Shown here piece by piece: positions 1,412-35,609 of a DNA stretch of 64,000 bases (positions within the stretch are counted from its first letter, which is position 1; each line of letters starts with the position of its first letter). The stretch covers positions 248,001-312,000 of the forward strand of contig NZ_BATP01000030.1 in assembly GCF_000739615.1 (NCBI RefSeq). Direction: 5' to 3'. The notes beneath the pieces are model-generated. The model ran no database searches, was not told the DNA's origin, and saw nothing but the letters and a program-made list of their open reading frames with translations. The position numbers and the translations under genes are program-made. Source of the DNA: Haloferula sp. BvORR071. GTDB taxonomy: Bacteria; Verrucomicrobiota; Verrucomicrobiia; Verrucomicrobiales; Akkermansiaceae.

Positions 1412-1495
1412 CACGCGGGGGCATGGCGTAACGAATCGGAATTGCGATCGATTGCCGCTTGTCCCCGCCCGCCTGGTAGCCCCGGCGGGCTTTTT
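1412..1495 (+). promoter_or_regulatory. Structured leader with alternative stem and intrinsic terminator upstream of MATE gene
   Basis: GCGGGG at about 1416-1421 can pair with CCCCGC at 1463-1468, enclosing a smaller AATCG/CGATT stem. The next hairpin, GCCCGCC (1467-1473) with GGCGGGC (1484-1490), is followed by TTTTT, an intrinsic-terminator layout only 40 nt before the MATE start at 1535. The two stems share bases 1467-1468, so they compete at their edge. It could be a plain terminator of the preceding gene or an attenuator/riboswitch controlling the exporter. It fits no riboswitch consensus I can recall. Confidence 0.45.
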
Positions 1496-29284: not shown

Positions 29285-29941
29285 TCATCCTTCTTCAGGC
29301 CTTTTCCAATAAAGGTACTCCCCGGACCTCAATTTCGCCTTCAGCGGATTCTCAGCGATATACCGTCGATACCGTTCAAAAGCCGCACGATCCCTTACCA
29401 GGTGATCGAAGCTCTCGTCCTGCCAAAGCCGCCCTTTGCGATCCAGCACGCGGTTGATCTGAAGCGCCGACCATTTCTTCCAACAGGTGACTTGGTGCAG
29501 CATCTTGTCCCGCGGCATCGCGCCGACGAGGAGATGGACGTGGTTCGGCATGACCACGAAGTCACCCAACAAGTAGCTCACGCCGTCCGGCTGCTGGAGG
29601 GTATCCGCGACGATCTTCGCGCAAGCGGGATTGCGGAGCGGACAAGTGCCATGGCAGGAGTCGATCTCGCTTTCGAGATCTTTGGCGAAGCGTCGGAAGT
29701 CCCTGCGCTGAGCTTCGGGTAGTTCTTCGAGGTGCTTTCGCCAATTGGGGACAGAGGGATCGATCCCGTGGATTTGGAGCCATTGAAGGCGGAGTTGCCG
29801 CCAGCGGTTCCATGTGGCCAAGGGGATAGAATCGGCGGTGCGCCAGGTGATGAAGTAGGTGGCGCCTTCTTGATCCCAATGGGGCAGGTGACCGTGTGTG
29901 ACGGTGGTGGAGCCATCGGGGTTGTAGAAGCGGAAGGGCAT
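29285..29941 (-). CDS. REP-associated tyrosine transposase (RAYT, IS200/Y1 superfamily)
   Basis: 218 aa single-strand DNA transposase of the HUH class. The metal-binding HUH motif is MPNHVHLLVG. The catalytic-Tyr end is RYRRYIAENPLKAKLRSG, preceded by the family's WQDESFDHLVRD. The ATG at 29941 starts MPFRFYNPDGS. RAYTs are single-copy domesticated transposases thought to mobilise REP sequences, not themselves. Matching REP hairpins lie on both sides (29203, 30075, 30137) in inverted orientation. No terminal repeats of an autonomous IS were seen. Confidence 0.9.
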   Translation of the reverse strand: MPFRFYNPDGSTTVTHGHLPHWDQEGATYFITWRTADSIPLATWNRWRQLRLQWLQIHGIDPSVPNWRKHLEELPEAQRRDFRRFAKDLESEIDSCHGTCPLRNPACAKIVADTLQQPDGVSYLLGDFVVMPNHVHLLVGAMPRDKMLHQVTCWKKWSALQINRVLDRKGRLWQDESFDHLVRDRAAFERYRRYIAENPLKAKLRSGEYLYWKRPEEG

Positions 29942-31175: not shown

Positions 31176-32321
31176 TCACTTCTCTTCCGACGGCGGCTTG
31201 GTCCCCGGCAACGAGTCTGGATCGCACAAGAGAAACAGCTTGAATTGAGCCGGGTGCAGCTTGGTCAGGACTTCGTTCGGTTTCTCCCCCAGAGAGATAA
31301 TATCCCCATCATGCGGAAAGTCCTGCTGTGCCGTGAAAGGAAGAATACCTGCAATCAGCTGCAAAGAATATGGAAGCTGGAGCCTGTCGCCCTCCGCGCT
31401 TTCGATTTCCGGAGCAATCCGCCATCCGCCCTCCGCATTCTCACCATGTTGGGCGCTGAAGTAGTCATGGTTCGTCAGCGCAAGCTGATCGGGCGATAGC
31501 TGACAGAGGTTCCACGGCGCATAGGCCTCGGAATCCAGCCACATCTGGGGAAGCGCAGCAGAAAAATACAACGTATGGAGGACAAAAGGCTCTCCCCCTA
31601 GGAGTCCTGGGAACAGCTCTCCTAGTTCCGCGAGCTCCTGTTCGGGGGGCCCATCGTTGGGCTGCCGCTGCTCCATCCGAAGAAAAATGCCATCCGCTCG
31701 CTCGAGCTTTTCCGCATCCGCGGCCAGGGCGGCGGCGAGTTTCTGCTTCAACTCTGCCTTTTGCTCACCATTCAGCATCAGGCCATCCGCGAGGGCGGCG
31801 GCATACCACTCGCGTTCGCGCGAAGCGGTTTTCAAGATGGCTTTTTTGAGGAGTTCGCGCTCAGCCGGGGTGGCCGGTTCAGGGCTGCTGCTGAGCACCT
31901 TGGAAATGAGATCCTTCTGCAATTCAAGCTCCGCAAAGAGACCGAGTTTCTCGAAGTCCTCCAAGACCCACCGAATCTCATCCTCGCTCATCCCTTTGGC
32001 GCAGCGCTCGCGGAAGACCGCTTGAACGTCCACGTCCACCGCCGGCCGGGGCGCCCGCTCACTGACCTTCGCCGACTTGGGTGCGCCCTGATGACGAGTG
32101 ATCAGCTCCCCGAAGGCCTGCACCCCGACCACCGCCAGCCAGCAGCCGCCCACGACCACGATCAGGCCAAGGACCAGCCACATCGGGTTGAAGCCCGGCC
32201 GCAGCGGCTCCTCGTCATCGCGGAATAGCTCGAGCATCTCGTCCAGCTCGAGCGGCTGTTTCTCGATCTGCCCTTCGAGCTCCTCTTGGATCTCTTCGTC
32301 GTCTTCCTCCTCCGGCACCAT
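31176..32321 (-). CDS. Membrane-anchored protein of unknown function, paralog A
   Basis: 381 aa. An acidic cytoplasmic N-terminus (EEEDDEEIQEELEGQIEKQ) precedes one membrane helix (WLVLGLIVVVGGCWLAVVG), followed by a large, probably periplasmic region. It is clearly homologous to the next gene upstream (32586-33686): NPMWLV...GCWLA, FRERCAKGMSEDEIRWVLEDFEKLGL, APWNLCQLSPDQLAL and HPAQFKLFLL all have counterparts at the same relative positions. No Pfam-like domain recognised. The start at 32321 is about 50 nt after the terminator of structured element copy 1. Confidence 0.7.
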   Translation of the reverse strand: MVPEEEDDEEIQEELEGQIEKQPLELDEMLELFRDDEEPLRPGFNPMWLVLGLIVVVGGCWLAVVGVQAFGELITRHQGAPKSAKVSERAPRPAVDVDVQAVFRERCAKGMSEDEIRWVLEDFEKLGLFAELELQKDLISKVLSSSPEPATPAERELLKKAILKTASREREWYAAALADGLMLNGEQKAELKQKLAAALAADAEKLERADGIFLRMEQRQPNDGPPEQELAELGELFPGLLGGEPFVLHTLYFSAALPQMWLDSEAYAPWNLCQLSPDQLALTNHDYFSAQHGENAEGGWRIAPEIESAEGDRLQLPYSLQLIAGILPFTAQQDFPHDGDIISLGEKPNEVLTKLHPAQFKLFLLCDPDSLPGTKPPSEEK

Positions 32322-32361: not shown

Positions 32362-32575
32362 GGCAAAAGAAAAACCCGCTAGCGGCGTTGGGGGGAACGA
32401 AGGCAGCGGGTTTTCCCTTGGGGGGAAGGGTTCTTCCGTCCGGGGGGAGACGGGTCTGTGATTTGGGGGGATTGGTTTCGCAAGTTCGGCCGGCGGGGGG
32501 GAGCGGCGTCGCTTACGGGGACCATCATGTCCGATTTTGCTCCCGCCACTATCACGCAATCGCGTGGCGGGCATC
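32362..32575 (-). ncRNA. Structured C-rich-loop RNA element, copy 1
   Basis: Minus-strand element that starts 11 nt after the stop of paralog B and ends 40 nt before paralog A. In 5'-3' order: stem CCCGCCA/TGGCGGG (32565-32571 with 32542-32548); CGTAAG/CTTGCG (32512-32517 with 32479-32484); hairpin CCGTC-TCCCCCCG-GACGG (32436-32453); hairpin CCCTT-CCCCCC-AAGGG (32415-32430); and a terminator stem AAAACCCGCT/AGCGGGTTTT (32405-32414 with 32371-32380) whose tip is CGTT-CCCCCC-AACG, followed by TCTTTT. Five C6-C7 tracts are present. It is about 75-80 percent identical by eye to copy 2. It may be a standalone sRNA, a 3'UTR-derived RNA or an attenuator. Confidence 0.68.
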
Positions 32576-32585
32576 TACGCAGGCA

Positions 32586-33686
32586 TCATTCCCCGCTGGC
32601 CTCCAGCTCCGCCGCCAAGCGGTCCGCGAGCTCCGGCTTCAACAGCAGGAGAGTCTTCAGCTGGGCGGGATGACAGGCCAGCGCCTCATTCTCCAAAACG
32701 CTGGCATTCGGCTCGGTGCGGCGGGAGAAATCCTGGCCGGGGACAAAGGGAAACAAGGCCCCTGCGCCCTCGATCTCCCGTGGCGACGCGCCATTCGGAA
32801 AGTCAGTCGAGTCCGGATGGAGGGGGTTCGCCAAGTTCACCACCGTCATGGTCGCGGGGTCGAACCACGAGATTCCGTGATCCTCTCCGCCCGCTTCCTT
32901 GGCCACTGCCTCAGCGCGATCCTGCCAAGTGATCCGCGACTGCTCCGGGGTGAGTTCCACCAGCTTCCACGGCGCCATCTCATCATCCTCCAGCCAGTAG
33001 CTGGCATTCACCAAAGCCTCGTAGGGCGGTATCTCAGCCACCGGATGAAGTCCGGCCTCATCCTGCGCGTCCTCGCGCTGCTTCATGAAATCGACCTCAG
33101 TCTCCAAGAGACGCACCGCGCAGCGCTCCTTGGCCTGGCGCCGTTGCCACACGTCCAGCGACAGGCCGTCAGCCAAGGCGTCGAGATACCAAGCCCGCTG
33201 ATGCCAGCCGATCTCCAGCGCCTGATCCTTGGCCATCGCAGGCACGTCCGGATTCATCCAGCCCGGCCCCCTCTCCGAGTTCGCGGTCTCCTTGAAATCG
33301 CTGACCAGCTGCCAGACCGTATCGACCTTCACCTCATCGAGGTCGGCCTTCTGGAAATCCTCCACGATCCAGCGCACCTGCTGCGGGGTCATCCCCTTGC
33401 GGCAGCGCTCGACATAGGTCTCCACCGAAAACTTCGGGCTGTTGCGTGCCAGCGCGCGGTCCGCGACCTTGGCGGGCTTCTTCAGCTTCGCCTGGCTGTC
33501 ACTGAGGATCGCGATGGTCCCAGTGGTCGCCTTCATGGCCAGCCAACAGCCGGCCACCGAGGCGATGAGTGCAGCGACCAGCCAGAGCGGGTTGCTTTTC
33601 TTGCGCGGTTGCTCGGGCTCGCGGAATTGCTCGAGTAGGGCCTCGAGCTTCGCAGCCTTGTCCTCCTCATCGTCAACTTCTTCCAC
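32586..33686 (-). CDS. Membrane-anchored protein of unknown function, paralog B
   Basis: 366 aa, paralog of the 31176-32321 product. An acidic N-terminus (EEVDDEEDKAAKLEALLEQ) is followed by one helix (WLVAALIASVAGCWLAMKA) and a long soluble part. Shared blocks are YVERCRKGMTPQQVRWIVED, APWKLVELTPEQSRITW and CHPAQLKTLLLLKPE near the C-terminus. Divergence between the two is high outside these blocks, so the duplication is old, whereas the adjacent structured elements are much more alike. Function unknown. It lies between the two structured RNA elements. Confidence 0.7.
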   Translation of the reverse strand: MEEVDDEEDKAAKLEALLEQFREPEQPRKKSNPLWLVAALIASVAGCWLAMKATTGTIAILSDSQAKLKKPAKVADRALARNSPKFSVETYVERCRKGMTPQQVRWIVEDFQKADLDEVKVDTVWQLVSDFKETANSERGPGWMNPDVPAMAKDQALEIGWHQRAWYLDALADGLSLDVWQRRQAKERCAVRLLETEVDFMKQREDAQDEAGLHPVAEIPPYEALVNASYWLEDDEMAPWKLVELTPEQSRITWQDRAEAVAKEAGGEDHGISWFDPATMTVVNLANPLHPDSTDFPNGASPREIEGAGALFPFVPGQDFSRRTEPNASVLENEALACHPAQLKTLLLLKPELADRLAAELEASGE

Positions 33687-33861
33687 CCTTACACCATAAA
33701 CCGAAGCCTAGCGGCACTGCAAGAGGCAAGTGGCTGCTCTGGAATGGGGCGGATTCCGAAGAGGAAGGCGAGCGGGGAATTCTCTCCGGGGACTCCATGG
33801 CCTTCAAGGGAGGATCCGCCCTGCCGGAACGGCGCAGCCGTCCCGCTACGGGGAGGAGTAC

Positions 33862-34070
33862 AAGAAAAACCCGCTGGCGCCGTTGGGGGGAACGAAGGCA
33901 GCGGGTTTTCCCATGGGGGGTGTCATCCGTCCTCGGGGGGAAGGCCGGGTCTGTGATCTGGGGGGATCTGCTTTCGTAAGTTCGGCCGGCGGGGGGATCG
34001 GCGTTGCTTACGGGGACCATCATGTCCGATTTTGCTCCCGTCGCTATAACGTCATCGCGTGACGGGGATG
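33862..34070 (-). ncRNA. Structured C-rich-loop RNA element, copy 2
   Basis: Minus-strand counterpart of copy 1, starting directly after the stop at 34071. Stem CCCGTC/GACGGG (34061-34066 with 34037-34042) replaces a C-G pair of copy 1 by T-A. CGTAAG/CTTACG (34007-34012 with 33975-33980) is fully paired where copy 1 has a G-T wobble. C6 tracts lie at 33991-33996, 33960-33965, 33935-33940, 33915-33920 and 33885-33890. The last is the loop of CGTT-CCCCCC-AACG at the tip of terminator stem AAAACCCGCTG/CAGCGGGTTTT (33899-33909 with 33866-33876). The remaining 175 bp to paralog B hold no recognised gene. Confidence 0.68.
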
Positions 34071-34682
34071 TCACGTGGATGGCGATGGAGTTGAATCTAG
34101 CAGATGAATTTTTGAAAATTTGTTAGGCCGGTGGAAATCCGGTTCGCCGCCACCGAGATCGACGGCTGTCAGGAAGCGCTGTTCCGGCGACCCGAGGATG
34201 AAGGTCACATTCAGGGTGGTCTCCGGCCCTAGATCCAAGCGGGCTTCCAACAGATCGCGGGGGATCGACATGGCCGCAACCCAGCCGCCGTCGGGTGACA
34301 GCTCGGCGAAGGTGGCGACCTCTGGAAAGGCGATCTCGCCCTCCTCCGCGCGGACCCGAGGGGCGATAAACTCACAACTCCACCATGCTCCATTTGGAGC
34401 AAGATTGAACTCGAAGTAGCGTCCGCTTGTCGGATGATGGAGAAACAGTTCAGCCACGTCGTGCTTCCACAGCTCCGGCGTGAACCGCCCCGGCCGCGCT
34501 GCCGGATGAAGCTTGGCGGGCTGGGCATGGGACGCGATGAGCCAGACGCTGCGGGTATCTACGGCAACGCAAAACGCGGCTTGCGGACTCACCGGAGTTC
34601 CATACCAATCCTTACCAAGCCCAAAGAGAGGGACGTCCATTTCGCCCCAGACCAAGGGCTTCGCGCTGCGGATCACCGTCAT
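34071..34682 (-). CDS. DOMON/CBM9-like beta-sandwich protein
   Basis: 203 aa without a signal peptide. The central part, WKHDVAELFLHHPTSGRYFEF, then LAPNGAWWSCEFIAPR, is the strand pattern of CBM9-like/DOMON-type sandwich domains, as are MSIPRDLLEARLDLGPETTL and FILGSPEQRFLTAVDLGGGEPDFHRP near the end. Such domains bind sugars or heme; which applies here is unknown, and the absence of a signal suggests a cytoplasmic role. The stop at 34071 is immediately followed by structured RNA element copy 2 on the same strand. Confidence 0.6.
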   Translation of the reverse strand: MTVIRSAKPLVWGEMDVPLFGLGKDWYGTPVSPQAAFCVAVDTRSVWLIASHAQPAKLHPAARPGRFTPELWKHDVAELFLHHPTSGRYFEFNLAPNGAWWSCEFIAPRVRAEEGEIAFPEVATFAELSPDGGWVAAMSIPRDLLEARLDLGPETTLNVTFILGSPEQRFLTAVDLGGGEPDFHRPNKFSKIHLLDSTPSPST

Positions 34683-34808
34683 CGCGGAACACCCTGAAAC
34701 CCAAGCCCTATTCGGTCGAGAGTAGGATTCTTAGAAAAAATTGCTGCGGGCCGGCGAAAAATGTCGCATTCCCATCGCGGTTTTGATTTACTTTTCTTAA
34801 CTAGAACC

Positions 34809-35609
34809 ATGGCTAAGCGTCCCAACAGCCATCACCTTGGCACCATCGAATACATCGGCCCCCGTCCGCAGGCAAAGAAGCCGCAACGAAGACCGAATTT
34901 CCTCGGTGGATGGGTCGTTTTGTTGATCGCGGCCGGTGCCGCGTGGTTCTTCGGGAAGCCTTTGTTGCCCCTGTTGCGGGCCCAGCAGACCGTAGCCTCC
35001 GAGCAGACCGCGAATCAGTTGATTCTCGAGCTTTCGCCGTCTTCGGACTTCGGTGAGCGCCTTGCTGCCCAAGCCCTTCAGCGCACCAATACTGCCAGCA
35101 TTTACGACACGGCCTATTACCAGATCACGTACCCCGGCGGTGACATCCCCAAGGGCGGGCCGAATGGCGATACCTGGAAGGGCAAGGCGGAGGATGTGCT
35201 GGTCCGCAGCTACCGCAGCATGGGCATTGATCTTCAAGTCCTGGTGCATGAGGACATGACCCGGAACTTCGCCTCCTATCCCCAACTCTGGGGCTCCGGC
35301 GCGCCGGATTCGAACATCGACCACCGCCGGGTGGAGAACCTGCAGCGCTACTTCAAGCACGCGGGTGCCGAACTGCCGGTGACCCGCGACAAGAAGGACT
35401 ACAAGCCGGGTGACGTGGTGGTCTGGATGCTGGCCCAAGGCGAGATCCATTGCGGCATCGTGGTCCCCGGCCCCGGCAACCGCAGCGATGAAGCCTGGGT
35501 GGTGCACGACAATGGCAGCGGCCCGAAGTGGGAGAACGTGCTGATGGAAAACCAGATCCACGGTCACTACCGCTTCACCGGCCAAGCGCTGGAAGTCGCG
35601 AAGCGCTAA
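34809..35609 (+). CDS. DUF1287 family protein
   Basis: 266 aa from ATG 34809 (MAKRPNSHHLG). One N-terminal membrane helix (GGWVVLLIAAGAAWFFG) precedes a periplasmic DUF1287 domain. It is recognised by TAYYQITYPGGDIPKGGPNG, DVLVRSYRSMGIDLQVLVHED, NIDHRRVENLQRYF and YKPGDVVVWML then HCGIVVPG. The order and spacing of conserved H, D and R residues resemble NlpC/P60-like amidase folds. Usual DUF1287 proteins have Cys before the D-V-x-x-R motif; here that position reads KGKAED, so activity may differ. Function unknown. Confidence 0.82.
   Translation: MAKRPNSHHLGTIEYIGPRPQAKKPQRRPNFLGGWVVLLIAAGAAWFFGKPLLPLLRAQQTVASEQTANQLILELSPSSDFGERLAAQALQRTNTASIYDTAYYQITYPGGDIPKGGPNGDTWKGKAEDVLVRSYRSMGIDLQVLVHEDMTRNFASYPQLWGSGAPDSNIDHRRVENLQRYFKHAGAELPVTRDKKDYKPGDVVVWMLAQGEIHCGIVVPGPGNRSDEAWVVHDNGSGPKWENVLMENQIHGHYRFTGQALEVAKR

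Follow-up and report, generated by a model that had tools for sequence, protein, structure and literature searches.

A multicopy family of predicted small RNAs with runs of six cytosines in hairpin loops in Luteolibacter and a sister genus

CsrB and RsmZ are decoy RNAs which titrate the protein CsrA through GGA motifs. RNAs with C-rich loops are found in the Rhizobiales, and these are presumably the ones named cuckoo RNA. In Xanthomonas, the small RNA sX13 was described to have three stems with loops of 4C, 4C and 5C; its repression requires these C motifs and G-rich motifs near the starts, and Hfq is dispensable (PMC3771888). HPnc5490 of Helicobacter, which is named in the same paper, has a UCCCCCU loop (PMC3771888). 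In Bacteroides, 12 to 15 paralogous FopS RNAs per genome, with the RRM protein RbpB as partner, were described to pair through a defined seed with the start regions of SusC-type mRNAs (PMC11697453). For the Planctomycetes-Verrucomicrobia-Chlamydiae group, a count of 8 sRNAs was given versus 345 for the Proteobacteria (PMC9029176), and little seems to be known of the sRNAs of this phylum. A literature search for Luteolibacter together with sRNA found no paper, and a wider search found none describing the family reported here, as judged by title and the start of the abstract.

The window, the whole stretch of 64,000 nucleotides that was analysed, comes from a host taken here as Luteolibacter (Verrucomicrobiota). 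A sequence-only reading had noted in it two copies of a structured element with C-rich loops, and its account of their positions, strand and order was confirmed. On the minus strand, a stop codon is followed by copy B (34070-33862), paralogue B (32586-33686, 366 amino acids), copy A (32575-32362) and paralogue A (31176-32321, 381 amino acids). Copies B and A share about 86% identity and start, respectively, 1 nt and 11 nt past the stop codons at 34071-34073 and 32586-32588, within the 12 nt that had been claimed. The intrinsic terminators proposed for them were seen as a terminator-like hairpin and T run at the 3' end of both copies. Each copy holds the expected five C6 or C7 tracts; the two strands of the window together have 21 tracts of six or more C, 10 of which fall inside the two copies. 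The alternating genes had been called paralogous, in agreement with the 30% identity of their proteins, each of which has one hydrophobic segment by eye and neither of which had a match in Pfam or NCBIfam. It had also been argued that indels break every reading frame; open frames of 119 and 133 amino acids do in fact traverse the copies, but there was no sign of coding. Compared with dinucleotide shuffles, the copies had better folds, with z values of -2.8 and -3.5, and 2/200 and 1/200 shuffles were equally good.

Each copy comprises a promoter-like block and a predicted small RNA, all on the minus strand. In copy B the block (ACGCGATNRCGTNAT, 12 or 13 nt, AAAATCGGACATNNT) spans 34010-34062 as aligned in A4, and is conserved in sequence with no pair predicted. 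The predicted RNA of about 151 nt (33862-34012) has its 5' end placed from the block and its 3' end from the terminator. The predicted fold has a 5' stem, P1 (CGUAAG/CUUACG), around a second stem, P2, with a C6 loop (33975-34012), and the terminator hairpin with the tip CGUU-CCCCCC-AACG is followed by the T run (33868-33908). In copy A the putative promoter lies at 32515-32567 (A4 row L001:1654-1706), and the predicted RNA of about 153 nt at 32365-32517, its ends estimated likewise. Its predicted P1 (CGUAAG/CUUGCG), with P2 and a C7 loop, covers 32479-32517, and the terminator hairpin with a C6 loop, then a T run, covers 32372-32413. The element of the earlier description therefore stands as a structured RNA for the greater part only, as its first ~50 nt, the promoter-like block, lie outside the structured RNA.

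The element is not limited to these two copies; as judged from sequence, they belong to a dispersed multicopy family with up to a dozen members per Luteolibacter genome and runs of six C in loops. More copies turned up on other contigs when the 7.8-Mb host genome was searched at the DNA level. A covariance model, R1, was then built from 40 aligned 5' halves; its calibration was short, so that the E values are rough, and its own 40 sequences match by construction, while classes II and IV and the sister genus (see below) were left out of it. In the host genome R1 gave 12 matches, namely, six class I units, three class II, one class IV, one inverted block beside a class I copy and one other, at contig C47, without a clear RNA. 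Genus counts refer to 18 Luteolibacter genomes (genomes are labelled G and loci L). At an E value of ≤0.01, 16 of these matched, with 1 to 12 matches each, and two did not. Four of the 16 (G011, G014, G015 and G016) had weak matches only (E 1e-4 to 9e-3); by eye, L082 and L085 are member-like, L084 has one C6 and L083 has none. Across the taxonomic family, 34/260 genomes matched at E≤0.001, comprising 15 of the 18 Luteolibacter genomes and 19 of one sister genus, with no match in the 14 other genera covered by these 260 genomes. The model search proposed in the sequence-only reading thus extended the element well beyond the window.

In an order-wide sample, 18/239 genomes matched at E≤0.01, 15 of them from these two genera; the matches outside the two genera (L107, L108 and L109) were set aside as they had no repeated C tracts, with one C5 in L109. 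A phylum-wide sample gave matches in 7/288 genomes at E≤0.001, six within the family and a single one outside it (G432, E 3.8e-4). When 84,980 species were scanned for an exact pattern, in a set that may omit records near the window's genome, one contig was returned, from Luteolibacter marinus. The block model, R2, matched 18/18 genus genomes at E≤0.1, with a tail of partial matches that is probably due in part to chance. The copies can also lie in tandem, and six were found in a row in G012 (contig C3). Rfam 15 gave no match at the gathering cut-off in the whole window and 20 further loci, in agreement with the earlier impression of an undescribed C-loop RNA; at E≤10 the scan of the locus gave six subthreshold matches only, the lowest E value being 0.16 for anti-hemB (19.3 of 49.5 bits).

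Throughout the family, a unit consists of the fixed ~50-bp promoter-like block followed by an RNA of 107-202 nt. The block consensus, ACGCGATNRCGTNAT, 12 or 13 nt, AAAATCGGNCATNNT, was nearly ungapped across 61 copies (alignment A4, which omits the five Luteolibacter blocks of L080, L085, L097, L114 and L116 and 13 sister-genus rows). RNAalifold predicted no pairing within it. The inner box was by eye replaced by its own reverse complement (RTGGCCGATTTTG) in 4 of the 13 sister-genus rows, a reversal that fits a site acting as DNA, not as RNA. Downstream of the palindrome ATNRCGTNAT, 21-22 nt from its end, comes a -10-like CATNNT. This motif retains the A and final T of the -10 box and, in rows measured by eye, is followed after 5-6 nt by CGTAAG. 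The palindrome is placed about where a class II activator would sit. These features suggest that the block is the promoter of each unit; sigma-54 and ECF promoter spacings were considered by eye only and dropped. Just upstream of the element at L003 (~1475-1492, minus strand), a second, inverted inner box (GGGGGTAAAATCGGACAT) was seen in the opposite orientation, as for a divergent promoter.

The RNA begins with P1 enclosing P2 and its C loop, continues with a variable number of stem-C-tract-stem modules and ends with the terminator. P1 is CGUAAG/CUUGCG, often GUCAGC/GCUGAC in the sister genus. The tracts were counted in a class I set of 39 RNAs, 36 with a script-recognised terminator and three (L030, L034 and L059) added by hand; another copy, at L056, and divergent ones, among them L079, L081 and L096, are outside this set. 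These RNAs are 107-202 nt long and have a median of five tracts of at least five C (C5+; range, 1-7), with only one such tract in 3/39. Tract length was exactly six in 111/169, and the context was a 5' U in 145/169 and a 3' purine in 164/169 (U-C6-R); one base is conserved on each side of the C run, with no longer seed. Hairpin loops contained 108 of the 169 tracts, compared with 41.2 (SD 4.9, maximum 53) in 60 shuffles of the between-tract segments, in support of the earlier claim that loops are kept while stems change. The last hairpin had a C5+ loop in 36/39 RNAs, versus 3/211 terminator-like hairpins in 0.83 Mb of the host genome, and all three of these are family members, two being the copies of this window. 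By eye, several sister-genus units and those of G001 and G005 have very different terminator stem sequences with the C tract still present. The copies diverge strongly within and between genomes and retain the block, the loop tracts and the terminator. The family thus has recurring hairpins that share a C-rich loop and differ in their stems, and the location of the tracts mostly in loops of freely changing stems points to the tracts as the functional element.

Covariation of the 5' stem was weak or absent within the genus. On the alignment of the 40 5' halves (A3), RNAalifold did not predict a single pair, an outcome that counts against the stem although we attribute it to misaligned short stems. 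With our own 5'-half structure, 78.0% of cells were paired, compared with 75.6% in shuffles, and the covariation was 0.146 compared with 0.111 (0/500 shuffles). For end-anchored P1 in the genus (39 distinct rows), 179/195 cells were paired, the shuffles averaging 174.1 with 179 as their highest value, and full stems numbered 23 against a mean of 22.1, giving no usable covariation signal. With another 15 rows added, most of them sister-genus, class IV or outlying Luteolibacter sequences, 251/270 cells were paired against a maximum of 237 in 2,000 shuffles, the 3' ends of the added rows having been chosen by eye for pairing. The covariation expected from the two copies is therefore clear when the sister genus is included, subject to this selection, and not within Luteolibacter.

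Counted by INDEPENDENCE and locus, the units numbered 73 (class I, 52; class II, 16; class III, 3; class IV, 2), at 63 distinct loci, with the ends of class II to IV and sister-genus units set by eye. The upstream gene was co-directional at 46 loci, divergent at 14 and not seen at 3, and the downstream gene was co-directional at 28, convergent at 33 and not seen at 2; in a single case (L100) the unit overlaps a gene called on the opposite strand. The convergent downstream and divergent upstream genes suggest that the units are stand-alone genes. They have their own terminator and an orientation independent of the neighbours, with a promoter predicted from the block. The tie to a paralogous gene pair that had been seen in the window did not extend to the family, as the copies adjoin many other genes, although this locus is itself conserved in synteny in several species. 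A homologue of the gene at 34071-34682, one or more elements and an A/B paralogue recur in G003, G007, G008, G009 and G012, with two elements in G008, and in G013 the element is followed by a glycosyltransferase gene. As judged by this gene order, the window locus is old, and the pair seen here is one local state of it. The product of 34071-34682 is weakly CBM9-like, below the cut-off. Divergent from this gene lies a gene for a DUF1287 protein (34761-35609, plus strand). Elsewhere in the window, 29285-29941 (minus strand) encodes a Y1/IS200-like transposase domain (PF01797), by eye of the REP-associated type.

The same block precedes other RNAs. Class II, found twice in host contig C16, in C61 and in relatives, has a different body of ~90 nt and a long terminator-like hairpin with a C6 loop. 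In three species, a class II RNA sits shortly before the gene for the same PAS/AraC-type regulator (L115:1366-2112, plus; L131:129-875, minus; L134:62-805, minus), the proteins being 89-98% identical. About 200 nt downstream of the class II unit at L054, a block-like stretch and another body ending in a C6-loop hairpin were seen by eye. Class III is a conserved RNA-like stretch of ~200 nt with CUCCUCCC and CCCUCCC motifs, located upstream of apt in G007, G012 and G009 (L138:~800-1025, minus; L139:~1070-1300, plus; L149:~920-1095, minus). The apt assignment is from NCBIfam for the G007 protein, and the other two proteins are 93-94% identical to it or to each other. This stretch has its own terminator-like hairpin and could be a separate small RNA or the apt leader; that of L138 had no Rfam match at E≤1. 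Class IV (host contig C10 and G003) has CCCUCCC-type loops by eye.

Protein-coding genes were also found behind the block. In G008 (by Pfam) and G006 (by near-identity), the block and C tracts near the start codon precede a MarR-family regulator gene (L137:470-931 and L148:501-962, both minus), with a leader ending in CATCCCCCCATG; this regulator could bind the palindrome of the block. A block and C-tract leader are likewise found before an ORF of 63-67 amino acids (G009 and G012), before the genes of choice-of-anchor K proteins in two genomes of the sister genus, one protein having PEP-CTERM over the cut-off, and before a 115-amino-acid ORF in a third. At L129 the block match precedes a 57-amino-acid ORF without a C6.

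Gene starts were surveyed in 1.63 Mb of the host genome, in which 1,300 genes were called by our own script and 258 of 689 starts were unambiguous. Shine-Dalgarno (SD) 4-mers were not enriched at -20 to -4, where they occurred in 74/689 genes compared with 58-105 in five other 16-nt bins; for the unambiguous starts alone, the values were 20/258 and 16-41. G5 was rarest at -20 to -4 (2/689 genes), and G4/G5 was depleted from -20 to +40 around starts, while G5 at -40 to -20 was found in 26/1,201 genes. Between about -40 and +40, the sequence around starts is rich in C and poor in G. Among the 31 C6 tracts in the 689 leaders of 100 nt, 22 end within the last 36 nt (binomial p 1e-4 to 3.5e-4, depending on the null chosen), a clustering that is based on rough gene calls and includes two tracts of one leader, and part of which the general C-rich, G-poor trend could account for. 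The models of Hfq and CsrA matched none of the 18 genus genomes, and RRM_1 proteins were found in all 18, with 3-6 each. In the literature, Akkermansia is listed as SD-scarce (PMC10783764), and A. muciniphila has 10% leaderless transcripts (PMC4782308).

Taken together, these data make it highly probable that the copies are small-RNA genes which act through their C tracts. How they might do so is less certain, and the reading that we favor, tentatively and at somewhat less than even chance, is that the RNAs are decoys whose C6 loops bind a C-tract-binding protein. Each unit would be transcribed from the promoter in its own block and stopped at its own terminator, to give an RNA that would display up to seven C5+ tracts, typically U-C6-R and mostly in hairpin loops. 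The C6 loops would bind this protein, the foremost candidate being one of the RRM type. The decoys would then titrate this protein off mRNA leaders with C tracts, as CsrB and RsmZ titrate CsrA. We prefer this reading since an SD signal, Hfq and CsrA were not found, whereas several RRM proteins are present and the block with C-tract leaders occurs on some protein genes. A fixed short motif in free stems, in changing number and with reuse in mRNA leaders, is moreover the design expected of a protein decoy. Points against it are the three class I RNAs with a single C5+ tract, the two genus genomes without a match and the four with weak matches, the P1 covariation that gave no usable signal in the genus, the caveats on the C6 clustering near starts, and the precedent of sX13 for C-rich loops with G-rich targets.

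Nearly as likely, though itself doubtful, is pairing of the C6 loops to G tracts close to the starts of selected mRNAs, which would change their translation, in the manner of sX13, whose C-rich loops act through G-rich target motifs as described in PMC3771888. That sX13 works without Hfq suits a genus with 0/18 Hfq matches, the CCUCCC-type motifs of classes III and IV are suggestive, and the 26/1,201 genes with G5 at -40 to -20 would be enough for a small regulon. However, G4/G5 is depleted at -20 to +40, where targets would be expected, the C run has no seed beyond one conserved base per side, and C tracts behind the same block occur in mRNA leaders too. The more specific proposal of the sequence-only reading, that the loops mask SD sequences, we consider improbable: C-rich loops, including the CCCUCCC loops of class IV seen by eye, have precedents in the CCUCCUCCC loops described for the Rhizobiales (PMC3927594), but C6 does not match AGGAGG, SD motifs are not enriched at the surveyed starts of the host, with few G5 there as well, and Akkermansia is listed as SD-scarce (PMC10783764).

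That reading's other proposal, an intercistronic attenuator, or else a mere terminator of the upstream operon, is about as improbable. It would explain why the elements of the window start right past a stop codon and end in a terminator, and why the upstream gene is co-directional at 46 of the 60 loci where it was seen. It cannot be the common function given the 14 loci with a divergent upstream gene and the convergent downstream gene at 33/61, and tandem arrays of the RNAs with no intervening gene, together with the conserved upstream block on each class I copy, also argue against it. Least probable of all is a dispersed DNA repeat of REP or MITE type, kept by mobility and not by function. 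The multicopy, dispersed distribution and the Y1_Tnp domain gene 2.4 kb from copy A would agree with this, but the copies diverge strongly yet keep the block, loop tracts and terminator, show no terminal inverted repeats by eye, and occupy one orthologous position in several species. Integron attC-like cassettes and riboswitches were considered by eye only and dropped.

A broader and more speculative extension of the decoy reading, which we regard as possible but rather unlikely, is a "C6 code" in Luteolibacter and the sister genus. In such a code, U-CCCCCC-R in RNA loops and mRNA leaders under one promoter class would be read by an RRM-type protein that controls SD-less initiation, tuned by up to a dozen RNAs with adjustable tract numbers. 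If true, it would be a global system like Csr with another motif and protein, in hosts for which the searches for Hfq, CsrA and an SD signal came out negative. The simple loop motif, the dedicated promoter-like block and the similarly built mRNA leaders offer a concrete entry to the question of C-tract-based control in SD-less bacteria.

The nearest systems in kind are CsrB, sX13, the Rhizobiales C-loop RNAs and FopS/RbpB, and searches against catalogued families gave no homologue. Like CsrB and RsmZ, the RNAs carry short protein-motif loops that vary in number and sit in stems free to change; unlike them, with their GGA motifs and CsrA, the loops here are C6 and CsrA was found in 0/18 genus genomes. 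With sX13, as described, they share the form of a stand-alone RNA with several stems and homopolymeric C loops, and the Hfq independence of sX13 is matched by 0/18 genomes with Hfq here. They differ from its 4C and 5C loops and G-rich targets near starts in that the motif is U-C6-R and G tracts are depleted at starts, and also in having as many as a dozen related units in one genome, a C loop in the terminator and the same block before mRNA leaders. SmelA075 and SmelA099 of the Rhizobiales are likewise built of three or four hairpins that share a C-rich loop motif and vary in their stems (PMC3927594), but they belong to another phylum and have CCUCCUCCC anti-SD loops, whereas the loop here is U-C6-R and SD motifs are not enriched. 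FopS has a defined seed, and the family described here has C6 loops, which the available text of PMC11697453 does not mention for FopS. As with FopS/RbpB, the RNAs are paralogous and occur in an SD-scarce bacterial group (PMC11697453; PMC10783764), and the RRM partner shown for FopS is a conjecture here, with RRM_1 proteins in 18/18 genus genomes.
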